Of a stretch of 28,760 bases of DNA, positions 9,675-20,265 are shown piece by piece; the first letter of the stretch is position 1; each line of letters starts with the position of its first letter. A program made the translations under genes and the position numbers. Under the pieces are notes generated by a model that searched no databases, had not been told where the DNA came from, and worked only from the letters and a program-made list of their open reading frames with translations. Origin of the DNA: a virus; IMG/VR virus record IMGVR_UViG_3300020171_000103, positions 1 through 28,760 of that record, one strand, 5' to 3'.

Positions 9675-10271
9675 ATGAATGAAGCAACCAGTCCGCAAAA
9701 CGACATCAACCAAAACCTCTATACCGTCGGTAAAGATAAACCATGTACCCGGTGCGGCGGAACTTATCCTTATTACATAATGGAATACCATCACATCAAA
9801 AACAGGATCAGCGTCCAAAAACCATTGCGTTACCTCACTCAATACTGTCGAGGAACGACGATTGAAGAGATACCGGGCTGTATAGCAGTGTGTGCTCATT
9901 GTCATCGGACCATCCATTGGGAAGCGCGTCAAGAGACCGGCAAAGAAGCGCGCGAGGATACGCAGGCGGCACAATGGTACGCCGAGGCGCGGAAACGTAA
10001 AGAAGTAAAAAAGCAACACTGGATTGCAGTCCGGGCACAAATCAAAAAACGAGGAATGGAGGCGGTATTTGCTCTGGTGCCGGCAGATCGGGCAATCCCT
10101 AAAAACGAACTTATCGTGCTTACTCGTGCGGCTGGTGTAGGATTAATTAAGACGGGAAAAATGATCAAGGCGTTAATCATCAGTAAAAATTTGTGTGTTA
10201 TCCGTGTCCGGCGCCCAGGCACACGATCCCGCGTGGATCTATCCCGGAGCCCGGCGCCAATAGCGTTCTGA
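9675..10271 (+). CDS. HNH nuclease fused to a winged-helix-like domain
   Basis: 198 residues. Residues 20-85 are an HNH fold with two zinc pairs (C24/C27 and C73/C76) and the nuclease residues in MEYHHI (36-41) and CHRTIH (76-81). Residues 86-130 are a charged linker. Residues 135-191 form a second domain that aligns with the C-terminus of the helicase encoded at 13482-15083: 24 of 58 positions identical by my hand alignment, including IPK-x-ELI, AG-x-G and RPG...RVDL. The pattern of helices then a two-strand wing suggests winged helix. GGAG lies 8 nt before the ATG. The domain probably gives DNA or partner targeting. Expressed from the promoter at 9512. Confidence 0.8.
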   Translation: MNEATSPQNDINQNLYTVGKDKPCTRCGGTYPYYIMEYHHIKNRISVQKPLRYLTQYCRGTTIEEIPGCIAVCAHCHRTIHWEARQETGKEAREDTQAAQWYAEARKRKEVKKQHWIAVRAQIKKRGMEAVFALVPADRAIPKNELIVLTRAAGVGLIKTGKMIKALIISKNLCVIRVRRPGTRSRVDLSRSPAPIAF

Positions 10272-10279
10272 GCCATCAT

Positions 10280-10336
10280 GTCCCACGCTCAGGCACTTGC
10301 GCCCGCGTGGACTTGAGTCGGACTTCTCAATCCTGA
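10280..10336 (+). pseudogene. Relic of a helicase-type C-terminal domain
   Basis: In a frame different from the preceding gene, these 18 codons plus stop read VPRSGTCARVDLSRTSQS. This matches the C-terminus of the minus-strand helicase (VPRPGMAARVDLARVAQP, residues 510-527) at 11 of 18 positions and the last part of the HNH gene just upstream. No start or upstream open frame of matching sequence remains, so it looks like a left-over tail from recombination or duplication. It is short, so chance cannot be fully excluded. Confidence 0.5.
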
Positions 10337-10440
10337 TTCTCAATTCTGATATATAACAAGGTTTTCACGTCTCAATAATCCAATAACTTGTCTACTATAA
10401 TAAACATAATCAATCCGGCATTGACAATATCGGGTTTGCT

Positions 10441-10469
10441 TTGTAACTTGGCACGGTTTAAGCTATACT
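10441..10469 (+). promoter_or_regulatory. Rightward promoter directly before a start codon
   Basis: TTGTAA (10441-10446), 17 nt, TATACT (10464-10469). Predicted transcription start 10476-10477 coincides with the ATG at 10477. A TTGACA at 10421-10426 with TAACTT at 10444-10449 is a weaker alternative that would give a short leader. Confidence 0.45.
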
Positions 10470-10476
10470 CTATGTC

Positions 10477-10683
10477 ATGAAAACAGAAGACTATATCAAA
10501 TTTGGCCAAATAGATAAACAGTGCGGCCTAACACCAGTGAGGGATTTTGCGGCATATACTTCGGAGCAAAAAAAGGCGTATTTGTCGGGTTACGGACTGG
10601 TCCGAAAAATGCGCAAACAATCCTTAAGAAATTGTATCAATAGATACAGGCGCGCGGGTGGCACGCAAAGTTTTGGCAATTAA
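10477..10683 (+). CDS. Small hypothetical protein, possibly leaderless
   Basis: 68 residues, basic at the C-terminus (KMRKQSLRNCINRYRRAGG). A YLSGYGLVRKMRK helix is the main visible feature. No ribosome binding site precedes ATG 10477, unlike nearly all neighbours; instead a promoter -10 lies 7 nt upstream, which suggests a leaderless mRNA. No family recognised. It heads the run of tiny genes to the right. Confidence 0.45.
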   Translation: MKTEDYIKFGQIDKQCGLTPVRDFAAYTSEQKKAYLSGYGLVRKMRKQSLRNCINRYRRAGGTQSFGN

Positions 10684-10714
10684 CGCAACCGCAACCCAAA
10701 CAGGAGGGACGGAC

Positions 10715-10867
10715 ATGAGTATCATCAAGAGACAGACGGCGACCAAGGCGATTAAGAGCGGATCAGCCCGTAAGATCGGCACATGTGTATCTGACGGCTG
10801 GCGCTGGCAGATCGTAGAGCGCACGGATATGCAACGGACGGATCATTACAGGATTGAGAGAGTATAA
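10715..10867 (+). CDS. Small hypothetical protein
   Basis: 50 residues from ATG 10715, chosen because AGGAGG lies 7 nt upstream. Strongly basic first half (IIKRQTATKAIKSGSARKIG), then a SDGWRWQIVERTD segment with a beta-strand look. The spacer before it carries the motif GCAACCGCAAC, which recurs before the next gene. No function can be named. Confidence 0.55.
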   Translation: MSIIKRQTATKAIKSGSARKIGTCVSDGWRWQIVERTDMQRTDHYRIERV

Positions 10868-10898
10868 CGCTACGAAACCGCAACCGCAACGGGGAGTT

Positions 10899-11096
10899 GT
10901 GAATATCACAGAAGCGCGGAGGGTAAGCAAACGATTACGCAAAGCCGGTATATTAACACAATGGGACAATGGAGCAGCAGCAAGGGCGGCTTGCGAATTG
11001 CATACGCCGGGACTGCACGCTATGGCCGGCCGGTATGCAGTATATGAGATCAGTCCGGCAATCGGGCAAACAGCTTGTAGATATTTTTGGGCATAA
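10899..11096 (+). CDS. Small hypothetical protein
   Basis: 65 residues from GTG 10899. GGGGAG lies only 2 nt before this GTG, which is short; an in-frame TTG at 10854 would overlap the previous gene. The N-terminal segment (ITEARRVSKRLRKAGI) is a basic helix, followed by an Ala-rich region. The spacer upstream repeats the GCAACCGCAAC motif. No family recognised; start uncertain. Confidence 0.45.
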   Translation: MNITEARRVSKRLRKAGILTQWDNGAAARAACELHTPGLHAMAGRYAVYEISPAIGQTACRYFWA

Positions 11097-11106
11097 CATA
11101 ACAACC

Positions 11107-11118
11107 GGCCAACAGGCC
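11107..11118 (+). repeat. Short hairpin GGCC-AACA-GGCC before a tiny gene
   Basis: GGCC (11107-11110), loop AACA, GGCC (11115-11118), ending 3 nt before an AGGGGG ribosome binding site. It is one of several GC-rich stem-loops in the spacers of this block. Confidence 0.4.
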
Positions 11119-11131
11119 AAAGGGGGACACA

Positions 11132-11365
11132 ATGAGTTACAGAATCAAACCAGTTGGAAGATATGTCCATAAATGCCGCGCTGGATGCGGCGTGCATATC
11201 AAGGCCGCAAAATCAAAATGCTGGGGTTGTCTTTGCGACATCTTGAGCAATCGGGAGCCGGGCACATGGCGCAAAGATCTGAAAACGGAGCGAGCACGCG
11301 CCAGACAAGAGCAAGGATTTATCGTTTCCGAAACACGGGCAATCTATGCCGGGGCAGGGATATAA
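11132..11365 (+). CDS. Small zinc-ribbon protein
   Basis: 77 residues. C-x3-C (CRAGC, 15-19) and C-x2-C (CWGC, 30-33) pairs about a dozen residues apart can bind one zinc ion, followed by a charged helical tail (WRKDLKTERARARQEQG). AGGGGG lies 5 nt before the ATG. Probably a small nucleic-acid- or protein-binding accessory; no family named. Confidence 0.6.
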   Translation: MSYRIKPVGRYVHKCRAGCGVHIKAAKSKCWGCLCDILSNREPGTWRKDLKTERARARQEQGFIVSETRAIYAGAGI

Positions 11366-11407
11366 CCAATAACGCAACCCCGGCCCGCGGCGGATGGAGG
11401 AGGAAAA

Positions 11408-11587
11408 ATGTATAAATATCGTTTGACTTATAATGGAAAGCCATTGCCACGCACAACAAAAAACATTGATGCGGCTTTATGCCGATTGCGCGAAAGACGA
11501 CAAGCCAGCAATGATGTTTGCGCCTTTAGAATAGAATACAAAAACACGGAATTTAATACGCCTTGGATGGTGTTGGGAGCACGATAA
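11408..11587 (+). CDS. Small hypothetical protein
   Basis: 59 residues, starting MYKYRLTYNGKPLPRTTKNI and ending TPWMVLGAR. GGAGGAGG lies about 5 nt before ATG 11408, one of the best ribosome binding sites in the window. The layout (strand YKYRLTYNGK, helix with LCRLRERRQ, then strand FRIEYKN) suggests a compact alpha/beta fold. No family recognised. Confidence 0.65.
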   Translation: MYKYRLTYNGKPLPRTTKNIDAALCRLRERRQASNDVCAFRIEYKNTEFNTPWMVLGAR

Positions 11588-11590
11588 AAC

Positions 11591-11782
11591 ATGAAAAGCA
11601 AAATAGAATCTCACGAATATTTCAGGGAAAACATATTGCCGCGTTTAATAAAAACCCCTACTGGTGCACAATTGAACTGGTGCCCTGAAAGAAATGAGTT
11701 TTGGGATGATAACACTCAAAATCTTTTTGCTTTATGGTTGATAATGATAGATTTAATAGACTTAAAAATAAAGGATAAATAA
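11591..11782 (+). CDS. Small hypothetical acidic-aromatic protein
   Basis: 63 residues, begins 3 nt after the previous stop; a GGGAG lies 11 nt upstream inside the previous gene. Contains PTGAQLNWCPERNEFWDDN followed by a hydrophobic segment (FALWLIMIDLIDLKI) that could be a buried helix. No family recognised. Confidence 0.5.
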   Translation: MKSKIESHEYFRENILPRLIKTPTGAQLNWCPERNEFWDDNTQNLFALWLIMIDLIDLKIKDK

Positions 11783-11786
11783 ACTG

Positions 11787-12023
11787 ATGAATATGAGAGA
11801 CTACGAAAAACAGAAACATTGTTGCGGATGCCATGATGATTTTTATAACCAGCAAGGCCATTCAGCCGAGGGAAAATGCTGGATGTTTAAGAGCGCAAAA
11901 CTGATATGGCGCAAATCCGTTGACATAAATCAGCGTCCACCGTGGAATCAGAAGGCAGAGAGGTTTTTATCATGCTATCACAGACAGGGAGCTATTTTTG
12001 TCAAACCGGATCAGACGAATTAA
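11787..12023 (+). CDS. Small Cys-rich zinc protein
   Basis: 78 residues (or 76 from the second ATG at 11793). The pattern CCGCHDDFYN (12-21), CW (31-32) and a late Cys-His (SCYHRQG) resembles a small phage family with C-x2-C-x2-DFYN and a later Cys. Zinc binding is likely; function unknown. No strong ribosome binding site, so translation may be coupled to the gene 4 nt upstream. Confidence 0.55.
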   Translation: MNMRDYEKQKHCCGCHDDFYNQQGHSAEGKCWMFKSAKLIWRKSVDINQRPPWNQKAERFLSCYHRQGAIFVKPDQTN

Positions 12024-12031
12024 CCCGGCCC

Positions 12032-12050
12032 GCCGTCAGCCAATGGCGGC
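12032..12050 (+). repeat. GC-rich stem-loop before a tiny gene
   Basis: GCCGTCA (12032-12038) and TGGCGGC (12044-12050) pair over 7 positions (one G-T) with a 5-nt loop. The ribosome binding site AAGGAG follows 2 nt later. Confidence 0.45.
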
Positions 12051-12066
12051 AGAAGGAGAAAGAAAC

Positions 12067-12228
12067 ATGACAGCATATATGATTAGGACAGCCAAGAAAG
12101 CCGACGGAAGCGAAAATGATGATCGCAAAACCAATAAACGCGTCGAGTCGGTATCGCCTCGCGCCGCCCGTCGTCAGTTCCGCAAAAGTTACGCTTTGCA
12201 CCCGACGACTGAATTGATTTGCGAATAA
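12067..12228 (+). CDS. Small basic hypothetical protein
   Basis: 53 residues from ATG 12067, chosen because AAGGAG lies 8 nt upstream; an upstream in-frame start at 11998 has none and overlaps the previous gene. Rich in Lys/Arg (DDRKTNKRVESVSPRAARRQ), C-terminus SYALHPTTELICE. Possibly nucleic-acid binding; no family. Confidence 0.5.
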   Translation: MTAYMIRTAKKADGSENDDRKTNKRVESVSPRAARRQFRKSYALHPTTELICE

Positions 12229-12237
12229 CAACGTCCA

Positions 12238-12258
12238 GGCGCTCGCCGGATCAGCGCC
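12238..12258 (+). repeat. Stem-loop in spacer
   Basis: GGCGCT (12238-12243) and AGCGCC (12253-12258) are exact complements with a 9-nt loop, in the 85-nt spacer before the 27-residue membrane peptide gene. Confidence 0.4.
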
Positions 12259-12313
12259 CGAAACACCGGCACGATTTACAGGCCGAAACACGCGACGCAA
12301 CAAGGGGAAAAAC

Positions 12314-12397
12314 ATGCTCGCAACCCTATACAACGCTCTTGTCTGCTGGCTGGCAGTCATTGGACTGGCCTGTCTGCTGTGGCTGGCCTTGACTTAA
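12314..12397 (+). CDS. 27-residue single-span membrane peptide
   Basis: Encodes 27 residues; residues 8-26 are a continuous hydrophobic helix (Leu, Val, Trp, Cys, Ala) with no charge, so it should insert in the inner membrane. AAGGGG lies 6 nt before the ATG, supporting real translation. A tiny holin-like, superinfection-exclusion or toxin-like role is conceivable but unproven. The spacer downstream is strongly structured. Confidence 0.5.
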   Translation: MLATLYNALVCWLAVIGLACLLWLALT

Positions 12398-12404
12398 TTT
12401 GCGT

Positions 12405-12470
12405 GCCGGTGTGCCGCGTCTTGGACCTGGTCTGGGGAGGCTGGACCAGAGCCCAACCCGACACACCGGC
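12405..12470 (+). other. Nested inverted repeats, possible structured RNA
   Basis: Outer arms GCCGGTGTG (12405-12413) and CACACCGGC (12462-12470) are exact complements. Inside them CTGGTC (12427-12432) and GACCAG (12444-12449) form a second stem with an 11-nt loop. No open frame with a ribosome binding site runs through it. It may be a processing site, terminator-like element or small RNA. Confidence 0.45.
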
Positions 12471-12531
12471 CTCAATTTGGTGTAAAAAGTGAGTGAAACC
12501 ATGGGATTTAACGGCAAAAATGGAGGAAACC

Positions 12532-12627
12532 ATGCAAAAAGACGATGAAGACGCCCAGGATGCCCAAGGATCGGAGTTGTCTTTCCGGCACAAAGCGGAT
12601 ATTGGCCCGGGACGAACGCATCCTTGA
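12532..12627 (+). CDS. Short acidic ORF with strong ribosome binding site (overlaps next ORF)
   Basis: 31 residues starting MQKDDEDAQDAQGSELSF. GGAGG lies 5 nt before the ATG, which is the best start signal in this stretch. It overlaps most of the frame at 12545-12703. Either both are translated, or a single-base frameshift near the CCCGGG at 12606-12611 separates what was one gene. Confidence is low because only one of the two frames may be used. Confidence 0.35.
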   Translation: MQKDDEDAQDAQGSELSFRHKADIGPGRTHP

Positions 12628-12703
12628 GGCCCATCAGGGCGTCAGGGATGAGGTAAAAACCGACCTATTCAGAGAGTACCAACAGGAGATAATGACAATA
12701 TGA
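12545..12703 (+). CDS. Small helical protein coupled to next gene
   Basis: 52 residues. The second half (TKRILARDERILEAHQGVRD, then EVKTDLFREYQQE) reads as an amphipathic helix, and the stop overlaps the next start as ATGA, the coupling signature used throughout this phage. The ATG at 12545 has no ribosome binding site of its own; an ATG at 12560 is an alternative. See the competing frame at 12532-12627. Confidence 0.4.
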   Translation: MKTPRMPKDRSCLSGTKRILARDERILEAHQGVRDEVKTDLFREYQQEIMTI

Positions 12704-13002
12704 AGTCAAAACACACACCAGGTCCATGGAAAGTTGAAATAGCGACAGATTTGCCGTTGGCTGTAACCCAGGTTAATCCACTCCCGCGAGACGCACATAA
12801 AGGGTGTTGTGTTTGTGAAATTGACGACTGGCGTCCCAGCGGAGAGTCTGCGGCAAACGCCTTGCTTATTTCTATTGCTCCTAATTTATTGGCAGTATGT
12901 CAATCCATTCGGGATGCAATCGTATCCAATACTCAAGAAGAAAGAGAATGGAAAGCCATAGCAGATCAACTTAAAGCAACTCTTGCCGAGATAGAGGGGT
13001 AA
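12700..13002 (+). CDS. Conserved phage protein of the HTPGPWKV type
   Basis: 100 residues. It opens MKSKHTPGPWKVEI and later has ANALLISIAPNLLAVCQSI, the layout of a widespread small phage family in which HTPGPW is followed by an (A/N)A-x-LI-x-x-APdLL helix. Function of the family is unknown. A CCVCEI segment adds three cysteines. AGGAG lies 11 nt upstream; start is coupled to the previous gene by ATGA. Confidence 0.65.
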   Translation: MKSKHTPGPWKVEIATDLPLAVTQVNPLPRDAHKGCCVCEIDDWRPSGESAANALLISIAPNLLAVCQSIRDAIVSNTQEEREWKAIADQLKATLAEIEG

Positions 13003-13211
13003 TGAATTTTACATTCCAAAATAACATCCACCAGACCACCGCCCGGGCCAGTAGCAAGGACTACCGATTGACCCGCCGGCAGGTCCAGCGCCTATGGCTG
13101 GCCCTGTGCGGTGATCTGGATTGTGCGTGCGGATTTGGTGGGGTGCAGGGTGAAAACAAGTGCCGATTAAAAAAGCTATCAGAAGGAGCGGAAATCTTAT
13201 GGAACCAGTGA
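13002..13211 (+). CDS. Small Cys-containing hypothetical protein
   Basis: 69 residues. Start overlaps the previous stop (TAATG) and GAGGGG is just upstream. An N-terminal polar segment is followed by a helix (RRQVQRLWLALCG) and CACGFGG...NKC, which may bind a metal. The last 13 nt overlap the next gene. No family recognised. Confidence 0.5.
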   Translation: MNFTFQNNIHQTTARASSKDYRLTRRQVQRLWLALCGDLDCACGFGGVQGENKCRLKKLSEGAEILWNQ

Positions 13212-13444
13212 TTTGCGACAAGTGCGGCCAGGACCACCACAAGGTCATGCTCTGCCGGTCGGCTAAGGGCGGCCGGCACAGTAAGGACCCCGAGGTGTGC
13301 CGTGCCGCGGCTTTGAAACGGTGGAAGGACTGGCGCCATGCCCGGGGTATGGCGTACCGTGAACGGCAGACCCGGGAGCAGTTTCCCTCGGCGGCGCCAG
13401 AGCCAACACCAGAACCAGAGGCCAAAAAGACCTGGCGCTGGTGA
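13199..13444 (+). CDS. Small zinc-finger protein
   Basis: 81 residues from ATG 13199 (AAGGAG 10 nt upstream; an in-frame upstream start overlaps too far). Starts MEPVICDKCGQDHHKVMLC with C6, C9 and later Cys able to bind zinc, followed by a basic helical stretch (AAALKRWKDWRHARGMAYRE) and a Pro/Glu tail. Likely nucleic-acid binding. Last gene of the plus block; it meets the helicase gene tail to tail with a 37-nt gap lacking a clear terminator. Confidence 0.55.
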   Translation: MEPVICDKCGQDHHKVMLCRSAKGGRHSKDPEVCRAAALKRWKDWRHARGMAYRERQTREQFPSAAPEPTPEPEAKKTWRW

Positions 13445-13481: not shown

Positions 13482-15083
13482 TCAGACTTCCAGTTTCAAT
13501 TCAGGCTGCGCCACCCTCGCCAAGTCCACCCGTGCCGCCATGCCCGGCCGCGGCACTTTCCAGATGTAAAGATCCTTGTCAGCGCAAAGCATATTCACAA
13601 ACTGCCACGCCTTATTTCTTCCGATCCCGGCAATCTTGGCCTTGGCAATCAACTCCTCTTTCGGTATCGGGTCCTTCTCGGGCACCAGTTCTAATAGGTC
13701 AAATTTCGTAACTGGTGCACTCGCGCTCAATGTTACTTCATCCGGACTGGCATCCGCCCAGAATATCACGCCATATTCCCGTGCGTGCTTGAAATACTGG
13801 AACATGGTTCCTTGCTCATTCTGGTCTTTCCATCCAATTCGGTATGCACGTTTGGCGGCTATGAACCGGAACAGGCTGATATTGTCCTTGCATGGGTCTA
13901 CGATGATTACCGCCCGGGCCCAGTTCGTCAGAACAGCGGACCCGGCGCCGGCATATTGCCAGTCGGACGACTTATACTTTGATGTGTCCCGGTTATTGGT
14001 CTTTGGTGTATGATGGTTGACAATCACAGCGCATTGGTATTCTTGTAATAGCGGGTTCAATCCGGTATGAACAAACAGGGACATAACTTCCGGGTCGCTG
14101 GTATCGCCACCGACGTATGATTGTAACGGGTCCAGGCGGAGGATATCGGGTTTGGTACGGCGCAACACCGATTCCACCAATCTCATAAATGCCGGGCCAG
14201 TCTTGGACTTCTCAAGGATGTAGAATGTATTTTTCCGCACCTGTTCTCGATCTTCCGCGCTCAAATCCAGTCCACCCATAATGCCCTGTGTCATTTCAGT
14301 CAGATCCCCGTCGTCGTTTTCGGCTTGGATGGTAACAATGCGTAGCGGCTTGGCTGGCGATATTCCGAACGCTGGTTGTCCCAAAGACCAGAGAATATCC
14401 TGTTGAACGCTGGCGCTGGACTTACCCACTCCGGATGGCCCTACAAATAACATACCCCCCTCACGGCATAGAAAGCGATTTCCCAGAAGCGTCTTGGCAG
14501 GATCAATGTCGAGGTCGGCAAAGTCAGTCAGGGATCGGATAATTAGCTGGGTATTAACCGGCTTGATTTTATCAAGCCGCTTTTGGATATTGGAGAGTGA
14601 ATCAAACACGTCCTTGCCGTTCTTGGATTCATCCTGTATGGTAATCGCAAGTTCTCCGAGTTTCCGCTTAGTGTATTGGTTATGGACAATATCGGCATAA
14701 TGAATGCCATGGGTAGGTTCGGACTCAATGGATAACAATTCGTTGAAAACAGATAGTGGTATTCCTGATATTTCTGACACCAAAAGAGGATCGACGTGCT
14801 TATTGAAAACAAATTGATTTAATGTGGCTTTGTAAATCTTGCGGTGCATTAAATCTTGAAATGCTCCACCACGCAAACCGATAGATTGGCAATACGGAAT
14901 AGTGATATCCGGCTGGCATAACATAGCCGCCAGTAACGCCTTCTCCATGTCATCATGGTTTGGGTTATATGGACAGATCGGTCCAGTATCCGGAAGAATC
15001 GGCAGCATTTCCTTTGGCATAGGTATTGCCGGCTTAGCGTGTGGGCCGACTGGTGAGTTCCAGTCTAATGATTTTTCAGACAT
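13482..15083 (-). CDS. Replicative helicase, DnaB/RepA-type
   Basis: 533 residues. Residues 40-175 resemble the DnaB N-terminal helical domain (DDMEKALLAAMLCQPD; HYADIVHNQYTKRKL). Residues 205-440 are a RecA-like ATPase: Walker A GPSGVGKS (215-222), Walker B DILRLDP (313-319), and VNHH (355-358) as a sensor motif. Residues 466-522 form a winged-helix-like tail shared with the HNH protein at 9675. It should unwind the phage replication fork as a ring. The start overlaps the upstream gene by 8 nt. It is the last gene of the replication block. A RepA/AAA_25-type ring ATPase is the close alternative to true DnaB. Confidence 0.85.
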   Translation of the reverse strand: MSEKSLDWNSPVGPHAKPAIPMPKEMLPILPDTGPICPYNPNHDDMEKALLAAMLCQPDITIPYCQSIGLRGGAFQDLMHRKIYKATLNQFVFNKHVDPLLVSEISGIPLSVFNELLSIESEPTHGIHYADIVHNQYTKRKLGELAITIQDESKNGKDVFDSLSNIQKRLDKIKPVNTQLIIRSLTDFADLDIDPAKTLLGNRFLCREGGMLFVGPSGVGKSSASVQQDILWSLGQPAFGISPAKPLRIVTIQAENDDGDLTEMTQGIMGGLDLSAEDREQVRKNTFYILEKSKTGPAFMRLVESVLRRTKPDILRLDPLQSYVGGDTSDPEVMSLFVHTGLNPLLQEYQCAVIVNHHTPKTNNRDTSKYKSSDWQYAGAGSAVLTNWARAVIIVDPCKDNISLFRFIAAKRAYRIGWKDQNEQGTMFQYFKHAREYGVIFWADASPDEVTLSASAPVTKFDLLELVPEKDPIPKEELIAKAKIAGIGRNKAWQFVNMLCADKDLYIWKVPRPGMAARVDLARVAQPELKLEV

Positions 15084-15603
15084 GCTTAATCCTCTCCTTC
15101 ACGGCGGCGCGGTATGCTCTAATACGCCCCTGCCATTCGTAGTTCATTCCAATAACACTCATTGCATATTTGTCCGCCAACCCCTCATCCTCCAGCACCG
15201 CCATGATGTCCGGTGCCGTGGTAGTCGCCCTGCGGTTCCACGCCTCAATCGCTTCGGCATCTGACTTATGTTCTATCGTGCATGGTTCAACCCCACACCT
15301 GCTATCGCCGTTGTAACACGCGACAAAATGTTCTGGATGCAACTTTGCAACGCCACTACAAAACGGGCAACGTAATAATTCATTCTCCCCCTGCCCCCCG
15401 CCGACGGGCGCGTGTTCGTGTCCACAAGAATCCTTTAGCCTGCACTCGCCACACAAACACACACCGACGGGCGCGGGGATGGGTGTCCAGTTAAGTCTAT
15501 CTGGATAATCGCAAGAACAACACCATCCGGATTCGATGTTTGTCCATTTGCAACTATCGCACGGACTCCCGCCCTTATCCCTGTTGCCTGTTCCTGCGGT
15601 CAT
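15076..15603 (-). CDS. Zinc protein with Lar-like restriction-alleviation domain
   Basis: 175 residues from ATG 15603, chosen because GAGGAGG lies 4 nt upstream and the start overlaps the previous stop as ATGA. The first 65 residues have several Cys pairs (CDSC, CCSC, CLCGEC). Residues 78-125 match the Lar pattern: LLRCPFC, a mid Cys pair, then EAIEAWNRRA. Lar-type proteins of phages and prophages modulate host type I restriction, though many members are untested. C-terminal 50 residues are helical. It precedes the helicase gene. Confidence 0.65.
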   Translation of the reverse strand: MTAGTGNRDKGGSPCDSCKWTNIESGWCCSCDYPDRLNWTPIPAPVGVCLCGECRLKDSCGHEHAPVGGGQGENELLRCPFCSGVAKLHPEHFVACYNGDSRCGVEPCTIEHKSDAEAIEAWNRRATTTAPDIMAVLEDEGLADKYAMSVIGMNYEWQGRIRAYRAAVKERIKHV

Positions 15604-15773
15604 TTGGCCTCCTCGGATTGTTGTTGTCTTTGATGTTCTTGAGCTTCGTACTCCCGTCGAGCATATCCATCCCGTCCATAATCCATATCGCCGTAACACA
15701 TGGAACAGGAACGGCCTTGTCCATCAGGGATGGGTCTGCCGCAACTGGTGCAATACTTTTGCGTGTCTCTCAT
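15600..15773 (-). CDS. 57-residue zinc-ribbon protein
   Basis: Starts MRDTQKYCTSCGRPIPDGQG at ATG 15773 and ends in a Gln/Glu-rich helix. C8/C11 and C23/C26 form a clear zinc ribbon. GAGGGGG lies 4 nt before the ATG, the upstream stop is directly adjacent (TAAATG), and its own stop overlaps the next start as ATGA. Probably an accessory binding protein; no partner can be named. Confidence 0.7.
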   Translation of the reverse strand: MRDTQKYCTSCGRPIPDGQGRSCSMCYGDMDYGRDGYARREYEAQEHQRQQQSEEAK

Positions 15774-16020: not shown

Positions 16021-17571
16021 TCACCCTCCCTTTCTTTCCGTAACCGCCTTGATGCCTGATTGCGGATCAAACACTTCGTCGGCTATTCCATTGACAATAC
16101 TGTTAAATCTTCCAACTTCTTCGTCATGGCAAGAGAGGGTGACTATCAACTTTCCCCCTATCCATTGTCGCACTTGTTCGGCGCTGTACCTCTCCTCCCC
16201 TGCCCGTTGCGCGAGGGAGCGGATGAAGTCTTTAACAAGTGCTGGGCCGATAGAGCTTGAAAGCACACTCATGCCCATGTATTTACATAGGTTATATGTG
16301 TCTCTCCATGCTTTTGATTGCGCTTTTAGTCCTTCGATAGAATTATCCCATCCATCATCCGTCACCTTGGGCGCGGGTTGCTTTGCCACAAATCCAGTAG
16401 AGCAATCCTTGGAACAACAATCCGTGCATACTTTATTATAGCAAAGCGAATTGCTCGCAACTGGATTAGCGGAACTGTAAGTCGGTACATACGGCGCGGG
16501 TTGCGGGGCGGGCGTGTAATTCTTGCGCCCTTCTAAATCGGGCTGGCTTGGAGAATAACAATGGGTGCATTTACTGTCAGCCTTCGACCAATTTGCAAGC
16601 AACCATGTTTCCATGTTGTCATGTATCGCGCGGGAACAACCGTAACAGGTGACATGCGGTGCGGGTTGCGGGGCGGTGTAGTTCTTGCGCTCACCATCAT
16701 CGGCACAACAAGAATTACACGGATTTAGGTGTTGTCCTTTTTCGTAGTCGCAACCTTTACAAGAACGATGCACCACGCCCGTGTCCTGCGGGGCGGGGGG
16801 CTTCTTGGTTTCAATATGCCAATGTGCTGTTCCTTGACCTTCGCAACCGCAATCGTCATTTTTGTCACAGTCCACCAGATAACCGGGGCGACAGTCCATC
16901 ATGTCTCCATCACAGGGACAAAGGTCATTCGTTTTACAACCACAGGGATTATCGGTATTAAATAATCCATCAAACCCGTTGGCTCTTAGATAACTCTTGA
17001 TTATCTTCCGTATGTCTAAACAGGGTTGCAGTTCCACCTGCGGGGCGGGGGTGTAGTTCATTCGTCTGGCAACAACGTAATCGAAGTCGTGGCAGGTTCT
17101 GCAATTTACTGCATAGTCAGTATCGTATTCGTCCTTGCACCCCACACACGACGTATGTGCAGGAGGCGGGACAGGGGCGTCACTTACAGCCCTTTCGCAG
17201 GCTCCACAAGGTTCACAATCTCCATCGCAAGTTTCTCCGTCCTGATTTTTGAGGACGTAGGTGTAGTTCTTATGTTCGCCATTTGGCATAATACAATTTC
17301 CACAAGTCAACGAACCGTTATCCTTTAAGCACCCCTCGCATGTCGTATGCGCGGGTTCCTTCGCCACCTTTGGTTTGAGTAGTTCTTCGGGGTGCATTGC
17401 TTTAATCGAGAGCATGGTTTTGTTTAACGATTCAATGCAGTCAAAACATATTCCTGATAGACGATCCTTTTTTACCCAGCCTAATTCTGTTGGAGCTGGT
17501 TTAAGTTTGCTCTCACAATAAATGCACGTCGGTTCCACGTCCACACCGTTGAGTTGTCCGCTGATTTTCAT
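16021..17571 (-). CDS. Large multi-zinc-module Cys-rich protein
   Basis: 516 residues from ATG 17571 (AAGGAG 4 nt upstream). After an N-terminal CIYC...CFDC ribbon (16-45) come four copies of one module: H-[TRSV]-x-C-x-G-C, a variable loop, C-x2-C, then [RK]-[KM]-NYT (about 75-103, 139-173, 268-298, 306-352), linked by TPAPQPAP-type spacers. A Cys/Asp-rich insert (209-243) separates modules 2 and 3. Residues 405-516 are a Cys-poor helical domain. Each module should hold zinc. Single modules of this kind occur in small phage proteins of unknown role; four in one chain suggests a multivalent binder. Co-directional with the neighbouring small genes. Confidence 0.7.
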   Translation of the reverse strand: MKISGQLNGVDVEPTCIYCESKLKPAPTELGWVKKDRLSGICFDCIESLNKTMLSIKAMHPEELLKPKVAKEPAHTTCEGCLKDNGSLTCGNCIMPNGEHKNYTYVLKNQDGETCDGDCEPCGACERAVSDAPVPPPAHTSCVGCKDEYDTDYAVNCRTCHDFDYVVARRMNYTPAPQVELQPCLDIRKIIKSYLRANGFDGLFNTDNPCGCKTNDLCPCDGDMMDCRPGYLVDCDKNDDCGCEGQGTAHWHIETKKPPAPQDTGVVHRSCKGCDYEKGQHLNPCNSCCADDGERKNYTAPQPAPHVTCYGCSRAIHDNMETWLLANWSKADSKCTHCYSPSQPDLEGRKNYTPAPQPAPYVPTYSSANPVASNSLCYNKVCTDCCSKDCSTGFVAKQPAPKVTDDGWDNSIEGLKAQSKAWRDTYNLCKYMGMSVLSSSIGPALVKDFIRSLAQRAGEERYSAEQVRQWIGGKLIVTLSCHDEEVGRFNSIVNGIADEVFDPQSGIKAVTERKGG

Positions 17572-17579
17572 GTGTCTCC

Positions 17580-17843
17580 TTATTGACTCCACTCAGGCAG
17601 TTCTTTTATCTTGCGTTTATTCTCCACGATAGCAGCGGTGCGTTGATACAATTTATGGAATTCCTGCAAGGTCACGCCCTTTTCTTGAACTCGTATGCTC
17701 ATTAACTTGGAAAGACACGTTCGCAACTCCGCGTTCTCACGCTCCAGTTCGCACACCTCACACTTGCGTTTCAGGTTTCCATGGACACACTGGTTCTTGC
17801 CGATGGTCGGTTTGTAGTCTGGATTGAATTTCATGGCGGTCAT
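17580..17843 (-). CDS. Small zinc and coiled-coil protein
   Basis: 87 residues from ATG 17843, which overlaps the upstream stop as ATGA. CVHGNLKRKCEVCELEREN (20-38) gives C-x-H...C-x2-C zinc ligands followed directly by a coiled coil (ENAELRTCLSKLMS) and a second helix. This CxHG...CxxCE-coil layout recurs in small phage proteins of unknown function. Confidence 0.6.
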   Translation of the reverse strand: MTAMKFNPDYKPTIGKNQCVHGNLKRKCEVCELERENAELRTCLSKLMSIRVQEKGVTLQEFHKLYQRTAAIVENKRKIKELPEWSQ

Positions 17844-18565
17844 TTCTTTGCCCTTCCCGCAATATGTTTCTGGTGCAGTTCTTTGCATTTCTTGAGTGTC
17901 CAGCCGGGAAACGTTTTGAATTTGCCGTAATCAAATGCGTCGTCTTGCGCCAATAACTCCAAAAGTTGATTATATTCGGGATATTTGTCAAAATACTCTT
18001 TTCGTGTGTATTTTGTTTGCTTGTCGAACGATACAACAAGCGGCTCTTTCTGGCAGAAAAACCCACCGCTATAATCCGTTGCATTCCCGTCGCCGGTGTT
18101 CATGTCGCCGGTGTTCCTGTTGCCGGTGTTCCTGTTGCCGGTGTTCCTGTAGCCGGTGTTACTGTAGCCGGTGTTCCTGTCGCCGGTGTTCATGTCGCCG
18201 GTGTTCCTGTTGCCGGTGTTCCTGTTGCCGGTGTTCCTGTAGCCGGTGTTACTGTAGCCGGTGTTCATGTCGCCGGTCGGCTTTAATTCTTCGGTCAGCC
18301 TTATTTCCCGGCAAACAATTTTTAAGTCCGCGCCGGGAGTATATTCCTCGTATGCGTCTTTCGCCTCCGCCTTGAATATGCGCGTACCTGTATCGTTGTA
18401 ATACGCCCAAGGGCCACTGGGATGAAGGCAGAAGTGGAACCCCTTTTTACATAATTCTATTTCACCTTTTTGCTTGTACCATTTGCCAAGCTCGTATTGA
18501 AAACCTTGGCACTTCATGTCCGCGTCAGTCGCTTTGTAGCCAGTCAGGTAATCGTGGTGTTTCAT
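17840..18565 (-). CDS. Pentapeptide-repeat protein with DUF7666-like N-terminus
   Basis: 241 residues. The N-terminal part (MKCQGFQYELGKWY, then LCKKGFHFC) matches a domain often found with phage pentapeptide repeats (DUF7666-like, from memory). Residues about 97-166 are some 14 NTGxx pentapeptides (NTGYS, NTGYR, NTGNR, NTGDM, NTGDR), which should coil into a right-handed quadrilateral beta-helix. The C-terminal 70 residues are charged and helical. AGGAGG lies 5 nt before the ATG, which overlaps the upstream stop as ATGA. Some pentapeptide proteins mimic DNA, but this composition is not notably acidic. Confidence 0.75.
   Translation of the reverse strand: MKHHDYLTGYKATDADMKCQGFQYELGKWYKQKGEIELCKKGFHFCLHPSGPWAYYNDTGTRIFKAEAKDAYEEYTPGADLKIVCREIRLTEELKPTGDMNTGYSNTGYRNTGNRNTGNRNTGDMNTGDRNTGYSNTGYRNTGNRNTGNRNTGDMNTGDGNATDYSGGFFCQKEPLVVSFDKQTKYTRKEYFDKYPEYNQLLELLAQDDAFDYGKFKTFPGWTLKKCKELHQKHIAGRAKK
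18099..18278. repeat. 90-bp tandem duplication made of 15-bp units
   Basis: Each block holds six 15-bp units of the form TTCCTGTTGCCGGTG. Blocks 18099-18188 and 18189-18278 are identical except in the last unit. They encode the order YS, YR, NR, NR, DM with a sixth DR or DG unit. This is coding repeat DNA, not a CRISPR. Confidence 0.85.
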
Positions 18566-18944: not shown

Positions 18945-19400
18945 CTACTCTTTGGCGCACGGGCGCGACAGGTGTTTGTCCTTCTCCGGTTCTTCCAGAG
19001 CCATGTTATTGTCACCAATTATAGCTACTTTTGGTGACATAAACTGCTGTTTCATAAACTGCATGACATAATCTACAACTGATTGGCAGTTCGGTATGTC
19101 CTTGTTTTCCGTAAACCCACTTGGCTCAAACGACTGGTGCGACAGCTTTTCATATAGTTTTTCGAGTGGCACTCCGCTTTGGAGGCAGAGGCTTATGAGG
19201 ATTCCGAATACCTTGCAGAATCCGCTGATGGTATCGTTGCCTTTGTTCACCGTGATAAAAAGTTCTGCTGGGCGGCCATCGCTATACATTCCAATCACTA
19301 GATAAAAGTGCAAGCGTTCGATCTTGCCGGATGGCTTCGGATGGCAAAGAACCAGCTTGTGATTCAATGACTCGCGCACGTCTGGAAGTCGCTCTCTCAT
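18945..19400 (-). CDS. Stand-alone TSCPD domain (NrdJ C-terminal-like)
   Basis: 151 residues. It opens MRERLPDVRESLNHKLVL and shows the conserved path of the C-terminal domain of B12-dependent ribonucleotide reductase: GMYSDGRPAELFITVNKG (37-54), a GF-x-K-V-F-x-ILISLCLQSGVPLEKL helix pair (60-82), FEPSGFT (90-96) and SVVDYVMQFM. The catalytic subunit is absent from the window, so this is the NrdJb-like part alone, perhaps assisting a host or phage reductase or acting as a separate regulator. Start overlaps the upstream stop as ATGA. Confidence 0.75.
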   Translation of the reverse strand: MRERLPDVRESLNHKLVLCHPKPSGKIERLHFYLVIGMYSDGRPAELFITVNKGNDTISGFCKVFGILISLCLQSGVPLEKLYEKLSHQSFEPSGFTENKDIPNCQSVVDYVMQFMKQQFMSPKVAIIGDNNMALEEPEKDKHLSRPCAKE

Positions 19401-19612
19401 GGTTTCATCCCAAATTGGTTCATAAGGTTGTTGACAATCGAATCGCCTTGCATCTCTTTCGTAATCCTCTGTGCTGTTTTATAGGATGCCTGTAACTTCG
19501 TCCAGCACTCGCGACACACCTTGACTGTTCCCCGGCGCGGGAAGTGCCTACCTTGTATTAAATCCACGAGTTGACCGCATTGGCAATACTGCTTGATGCT
19601 GGGTGGTTTCAT
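19397..19612 (-). CDS. Small zinc-ribbon protein
   Basis: 71 residues. YCQCGQ (9-14) and CRECW (33-37) supply four cysteines for one zinc site, followed by a helical tail (LQASYKTAQRITKEMQGDSI). Both ends overlap neighbours as ATGA, so it is tightly coupled to the methyltransferase upstream and the TSCPD gene downstream. No specific family named. Confidence 0.65.
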   Translation of the reverse strand: MKPPSIKQYCQCGQLVDLIQGRHFPRRGTVKVCRECWTKLQASYKTAQRITKEMQGDSIVNNLMNQFGMKP

Positions 19613-20265
19613 AGTGCTAACAGTTGTTGTTGCAACTCGATCTTGATTCTGTTCTTGGCAATCTCAAAGTATTCTGGTGAGATTTCAATGCCGATAAACT
19701 TGCGGCCAGTGCGGATGCAGGCGATTCCGGTCGTGCCGGAACCCATAAAGGGGTCGAGGACGATTTCCGATGTTGGGGAATATTCAACCAAAAGACGTTC
19801 GATTAATTCAACGGGTTTTTGAGTGGGGTGATAACGTATTTCCGGTTTTTGTTTTAACATTCCGCTCCATGTGTATCTAAAAATCTGAAGCGCAACATCC
19901 TTGTTTGTCCAAATCAATTCTCCGTCCGCATATCTTCCATTCGCCCTTTTATCCCAAACTACCCACCCGCGAGACAGAGGCAAAACATCGGCGTAATAAT
20001 TTCCGCCAAAAATTACAGAGTCCTTAAAAAGGGCACACGATTTAATCACGTCTGGATTTTTTATATCCCAATTCACAGTCTTATATTGAGTTAACTTAGC
20101 TAAATGAAACTTGCTCGGACCGCCGGGAACGATATTGTTGTGTCCTATCCCATACGGCGGATCAGTAATCACCGCATCTACCTTGCCAATCTCCGGCAGG
20201 ATCGTCAGGCAATCGCCGCAATAAAGCTGGATGCGCCCGTCGTCAGTTTGCCATGTTGGTGTCAT
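19609..20265 (-). CDS. DNA methyltransferase, N6-adenine or N4-cytosine type
   Basis: 218 residues. DPPY (35-38, catalytic motif IV) precedes DPFMGSGTTG (171-180, SAM-binding motif I), the beta-class order, with HPTQKPVELIERLL (146-159) before motif I. It transfers a methyl group from SAM to adenine or cytosine in a short site; the missing large target-recognition domain suggests a short target. No restriction enzyme is nearby, so it is an orphan enzyme, most likely for protection from host restriction or for regulation. AAGGA lies 4 nt before ATG 20265. The leader upstream is structured. Confidence 0.9.
   Translation of the reverse strand: MTPTWQTDDGRIQLYCGDCLTILPEIGKVDAVITDPPYGIGHNNIVPGGPSKFHLAKLTQYKTVNWDIKNPDVIKSCALFKDSVIFGGNYYADVLPLSRGWVVWDKRANGRYADGELIWTNKDVALQIFRYTWSGMLKQKPEIRYHPTQKPVELIERLLVEYSPTSEIVLDPFMGSGTTGIACIRTGRKFIGIEISPEYFEIAKNRIKIELQQQLLAL

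Follow-up and report, generated by a model that had tools for sequence, protein, structure and literature searches.

A minus-strand gene of a virus record (positions 16021–17571, ATG at 17571) was found to encode a 516-residue protein strung together from small Cys-rich units: an N-terminal ribbon, four H-x2-C-x-G-C...C-x2-C...NYT modules, an internal domain termed GFDGL here, and a C-terminus predicted to be helical. Its modular build is well supported. The NYT modules and the GFDGL domain have solo or single-copy counterparts elsewhere among phages; the counterpart of the ribbon is only a lead. As a tentative reading, the protein may be an acidic cytosolic adaptor that binds several zinc ions, was put together from exchangeable small phage domains and probably serves in host takeover or counter-defence.

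The window, i.e. the whole stretch of DNA that was analysed, is a virus record of 28,760 bases with tailed-phage genes (portal, Sak4-like annealing protein, helicase, exonuclease, DNA methyltransferase, HNH nuclease, AAA/DnaB-like helicase); the phage DNA methyltransferase gene (19609–20265) lies in the same region as the 516-residue frame. This frame comprises 516 codons plus stop and is open throughout, and at the stop frequency of the window a 523-codon open frame has a chance probability of about 8e-9. ATG 17571 was taken as the likely start because an AGGAG ribosome-binding site (17576–17580, minus strand) was seen just upstream, in overlap with the preceding gene's stop codon; a longer alternative from GTG 17592 is less likely. 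The ATG of the next gene stands directly at the stop of the frame, and the gene is placed in a tightly packed early-region operon. Codon-position GC was 0.52/0.46/0.48, without the high third-position GC that most replication and structural genes in this record show, which was counted against the adaptor reading.

Cysteine accounts for 41 of the 516 residues (7.9%), and C-x2-C was counted 13 times with overlaps (12 without) vs. 3.2 expected. H-x2-C-x-G-C starts at residues 75, 139, 268 and 306, and NYT follows at residues 102, 172, 297 and 351. The four complete modules named in a preliminary description of this DNA are present, and four or more were reached in 0 of 20,000 residue shuffles. 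All lie on the minus strand: module 1 at 17254–17349 (residues 75–106), module 2 at 17044–17157 (residues 139–176), module 3 at 16657–16770 (residues 268–305) and module 4 at 16492–16656 (residues 306–360). Each contains two C-x2-C knuckles, as in a zinc ribbon, and the Cys ligands are retained in 4/4. Using a module profile, modules 1, 2 and 3, which are themselves its seed rows, were matched strongly (E 1.1e-13 to 1.4e-18). Module 4, which was not a seed row, was matched only weakly and with a truncated hit (E 0.87), so that it is regarded as the most divergent; its inner loop measures 22 residues.

The linker NYTPAPQPAP, given in the earlier description, was found exactly in module 4 only; module 3 carries NYTAPQPAP, module 2 the shorter NYTPAPQ, and module 1 none. 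Modules start with His soon after a Pro/Ala stretch, and the repeated linker DNA of the frame falls into five families (up to 39 nt at 79%). The fourth linker is followed by DNA that looks like a module start stripped of its ligands (11/18 nt); 3 of 500 in-frame positions, true module 3 among them, score as high. A decayed fifth module is weakly suggested by this; the region concerned, residues 361–400 (16372–16491, minus strand), also holds a Cys cluster and ends in a QPAP linker.

The earlier notion of zinc modules on flexible linkers was partly sustained. It agrees with the Cys pattern and with the occurrence of similar units as separate small proteins, and in a single-sequence, metal-free model module 1 was predicted as a three-stranded sheet (residues 77–108, pLDDT approximately 53–71). 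In the same model (mean pLDDT 38) the other three modules were not folded.

Single modules were recovered elsewhere. A module DNA pattern applied to viral contigs returned 29 stretches, of which one was judged a real small module protein (L027) and one doubtful (L029), the others being chance hits or different proteins; a further scan returned 17 stretches with three module proteins (L027, L102, L105). The 57-residue frame of L027 (55-aa ORF) is a single module, H-x2-C-x-G-C...P-C-x2-C...NWAP, and small proteins of L102 and L105 each end with one module. Among 117 loci (0.94 Mb), no relative was seen to have two or more NYT modules. The only module-profile match in 296 Spirochaetota genomes was judged chance, matches to PDB sequences were weak and composition-like, and two stretches matching the linker pattern were both unrelated proteins.

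The N-terminal ribbon and the Cys-rich insert (residues 184–257), both claimed beforehand, are likewise present. The ribbon (residues 14–47; 17431–17532, minus strand) has the spacing C-x2-C-x22-C-x2-C, its Cys pairs spanning residues 16–45. It resembles a stand-alone 91-residue protein of Flyfo podovirus Tbat2_2, with 19/38 identical positions, the same Cys pairs and a pairwise E of 2e-7; because the database-search E was 6, this possible homologue is a lead and not proven. An extra cluster of four Cys follows module 1 (residues 115–125; 17197–17229, minus strand), and a further one was seen at residues 377–390. The C-terminal region (residues 401–516; 16024–16371, minus strand) was predicted as helices in the structure model and had no relative in the phage collection.

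Judged from sequence, the Cys-rich insert is a separate domain (16801–17022, minus strand), a fused copy related to a small stand-alone phage protein family that is apparently unnamed. The family was defined here by G-[FY]-D-G-L and four conserved Cys. When the 516-residue protein was subjected to tblastn against 50,697 phage records, only residues 185–254 were matched, in two records, both times in short ORFs (74 and 67 aa), one of them unannotated as a gene in its record and the other in an annotation-free record. The domain matched MW202801 with E 3e-13. In a 37-row alignment, residues 184–257 show I..L..NG[FY]DGL, CxC, two further Cys and a similar length, and they align over the full length with the relatives, keeping all four invariant Cys. 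Invariant positions were Ile7, Leu12, Gly16, Asp18-Gly19-Leu20 and Cys27, 29, 37 and 44; GxDGL and CxC were search conditions for the rows, whereas constancy of Ile7, Leu12, Cys37 and Cys44 was not demanded by the search.

Members occur in dozens of virus contigs, in three annotated virus records and in 4 of 296 Spirochaetota genomes; the stand-alone relatives mostly measure 53–86 aa. The viral-contig scan confirmed 18 loci out of 89 candidate stretches, a scan with the GYDGL pattern accepted 22 of 24, and one of 88 candidate stretches held the domain in a bacterial and archaeal genome collection. Besides the domain in the window, the family was recorded at loci L002–L022 and L075–L098; L088 (a chance match) and L090 (a 31-aa fragment) were excluded from it, L085, L092 and L095 repeat other rows, and L005–L007 and L017 were omitted from alignments as duplicates. 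A consensus sequence used as query also matched a record whose assigned host belongs to the Methanosarcinales (E 5e-3). The small acidic four-Cys GFDGL/GYDGL proteins form a phage-wide family that extends to this archaeal-host-assigned record. One Spirochaetota match (G148 contig 2, 433344–433559; L072) contains an in-frame TAG and may be either a decayed copy or a case of stop read-through.

No credible match to the family was obtained in Pfam (18 members), PHROGs (nine plus four members and the consensus) or NCBIfam (five members). AlphaFold2 modelling with 35 rows predicted a helix and four short strands (pLDDT 81.7, pTM 0.68). Foldseek gave no PDB match for this model (best E 8.4) and a single similar viral model, that of an uncharacterised Caudovirales protein of 77 aa (TM 0.74, E 3.4e-4). 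The best match of the family profile to PDB sequences (E 0.12) was not credible. As the predicted fold is confident and has neither a PDB match nor a family name in the scanned libraries, one solved member would annotate many phage genes. Neighbouring genes were tabulated for 36 loci, L118 being left out for want of a motif match; 106 of the 129 neighbours share the strand of the GFDGL gene. Among the 25 of 57 Pfam families listed for these 129 neighbours, ordinary replication, recombination and structural families prevailed (SSB, YqaJ, SNF2, VRR-NUC), which was counted against a counter-defence adaptor.

Some links were seen with the Lar/Ral proteins (PF14354, PHROG_599), likewise small phage ribbon proteins with Cys pairs. 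The second gene downstream (15076–15699, minus strand) combines a PF14354 domain (31.0 bits, cut-off 28.6) with an NYT-type module at 15475–15576 (CDSC..CCSC..LNWTPIPAP; E 1.0e-14, using a profile of which that module is itself a part); against NCBIfam TIGR03655 the gene scored 19.4, below the cut-off of 39.6. Locus L098 (11281–11958) encodes a 226-aa protein in which an N-terminal Lar-like ribbon (PHROG_599 E 1.4e-7; Pfam E 2.9e-4, below cut-off) is fused to a GYDGL domain and a C-terminal tail. The 516-residue protein differs in that it gave no Lar_restr_allev match in profile scans. In a Spirochaetia assembly (L022, 4246–4611; also G001 contig 138, 779–931) a Lar-like match follows approximately 26 nt downstream of the GFDGL frame. 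Across records, Lar was not clearly enriched: at E ≤ 0.01 the Lar profile matched 8/36 GFDGL records vs. 3/36 controls, most of these being partial ribbon matches inside long frames, and above cut-off 0/36 vs. 1/36. A CPFC-type motif count (1/41 loci vs. 0/29 controls) was superseded by this profile test.

The whole protein and eight pieces of it gave no credible match in Pfam, PHROG or NCBIfam, and the protein gave none in PDB sequences; the family scans returned no enzymatic family. A fold search with the poor whole-protein model was set aside (best E 9.5e-4, TM-scores below 0.1). Selection on the whole protein was not measurable, as the collections searched yielded no close relative. Within the 117 loci (0.94 Mb), no other ORF had at least three C-x2-C double pairs or GFDGL together with a double C-x2-C; the Lar expression used in this architecture scan missed the L098 fusion. 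GFDGL relatives are stand-alone, apart from that Lar fusion, whereas in the 516-residue protein it sits internally, flanked by NYT modules. Among the papers listed by searches of the open-licence PMC literature, none was seen to describe this architecture or the GFDGL family.

Of known systems, the polyvalent proteins come close: Iyer et al. 2017 (PMC5512222) describe disparate domains, a large fraction of them enzymatic, with predicted entry along with the DNA. The 516-residue polypeptide likewise holds two or more distinct domains that also occur solo, but they are not of the disparate, largely enzymatic kind, no enzyme domain having been found. Domain shuffling in phage proteins is already known (PMC10684548), and for Bacillus phage G a zinc-ribbon expansion of about 35 copies is reported (PMC7824862). 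There too a phage multiplies a zinc-ribbon unit, but the copies are counted across the genome and not within one protein. The module profile found nothing in phage G at E ≤ 1, and the Cys pattern of gp32, an example protein, is unlike the NYT module. Multi-domain phage conflict proteins are already known. The modular protein is real and well formed; of greater use, as a by-product, is the undescribed GFDGL domain.

For the adaptor, we propose that each module would fold as a small zinc ribbon. Metal is likelier than disulphides, because no export signal was noticed by eye at the N-terminus and the protein is hence expected in the cytosol. The Pro/Ala linkers would keep the beads independent, and different beads could grip different host (or phage) proteins, a single polypeptide doing the work that several small takeover or counter-defence proteins may do elsewhere. 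The preliminary description had suggested that several copies of one target are bound. This is not supported, as the string contains at least three domain types and a helical C-terminus; N-terminal ribbon, NYT modules, GFDGL domain and C-terminus together point to several different contacts. Work as an adaptor or inhibitor, in host takeover or in counter-defence, is the likeliest role. A direction towards counter-restriction is suggested only by the Lar-gene module, the Lar-GFDGL fusion and the nearby DNA methyltransferase.

Many zinc ribbons bind nucleic acid, and the ribbons might instead bind ssDNA or RNA and aid replication or recombination. The surroundings would suit this, as the genes around it include those for replication and recombination (Sak4-like, helicase, exonuclease, AAA/DnaB-like) and GFDGL genes elsewhere adjoin SSB and YqaJ genes. 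The charge speaks against it: the protein carries −13 net, none of nine parts measured was more basic than +1, and the GFDGL domains were net negative in 37/37 rows. Protein rather than DNA partners are favoured by this acidity of protein and domain, and nucleic-acid binding is considered unlikely. Doubtful, too, is accretion without joint function, whereby small ORFs were fused by recombination at similar GC-rich linker DNA and some modules are decaying. The repeated linker DNA, the possible decayed fifth module, the divergence of module 4 and an architecture seen in no other of the 117 fetched loci are what such a history might leave, but the long open frame is improbable by chance, the ribosome-binding site and operon packing are intact, and no module has lost its Cys ligands.

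If the Cys content were itself the function, the protein could be a metallothionein-like metal store or buffer, with its 41 Cys and the extra clusters outside the modules. This is quite improbable, since the Cys form ordered C-x2-C pairs next to recurring other residues (H, G, NYT), a core of residues other than Cys is conserved in the GFDGL domain, and 7.9% Cys is lower than in metallothioneins. Hardly credible is a multihaem or redox protein with C-x2-C-H haem sites: weak profile matches to multihaem cytochromes c7 were obtained (best E 0.022) and one C-R-T-C-H occurs at residues 157–161, but by eye His follows just one C-x2-C, so that the haem motif is not repeated, and no sign of export was noticed.

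Should the adaptor reading be true, phages build takeover proteins by stringing small metal-binding units, which would give role guesses for many unannotated small Cys-rich phage proteins, with fusions of the Lar-GFDGL type as testable links. A bolder and rather improbable extension is that phages share a pool of tiny four-Cys domains (Lar ribbons, NYT modules, GFDGL domains, short ribbons) swapped between proteins via similar Pro/Ala-coding linkers; the protein would then be a multi-headed counter-defence factor, each head neutralising a different host protein, and GFDGL an undescribed counter-defence fold.

Elsewhere in the window, a DUF7666 gene was observed at 17840–18565, in which NTGxRNTG repeats of pentapeptide type follow one another, and a TSCPD-domain gene at 18945–19400, no ribonucleotide reductase gene being noticed within the window. 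The record is mostly minus-strand apart from a plus-strand block of small ORFs including the HNH nuclease (approximately 9675–13444), which is adjoined by an ORF-poor stretch at approximately 8.5–9.6 kb.
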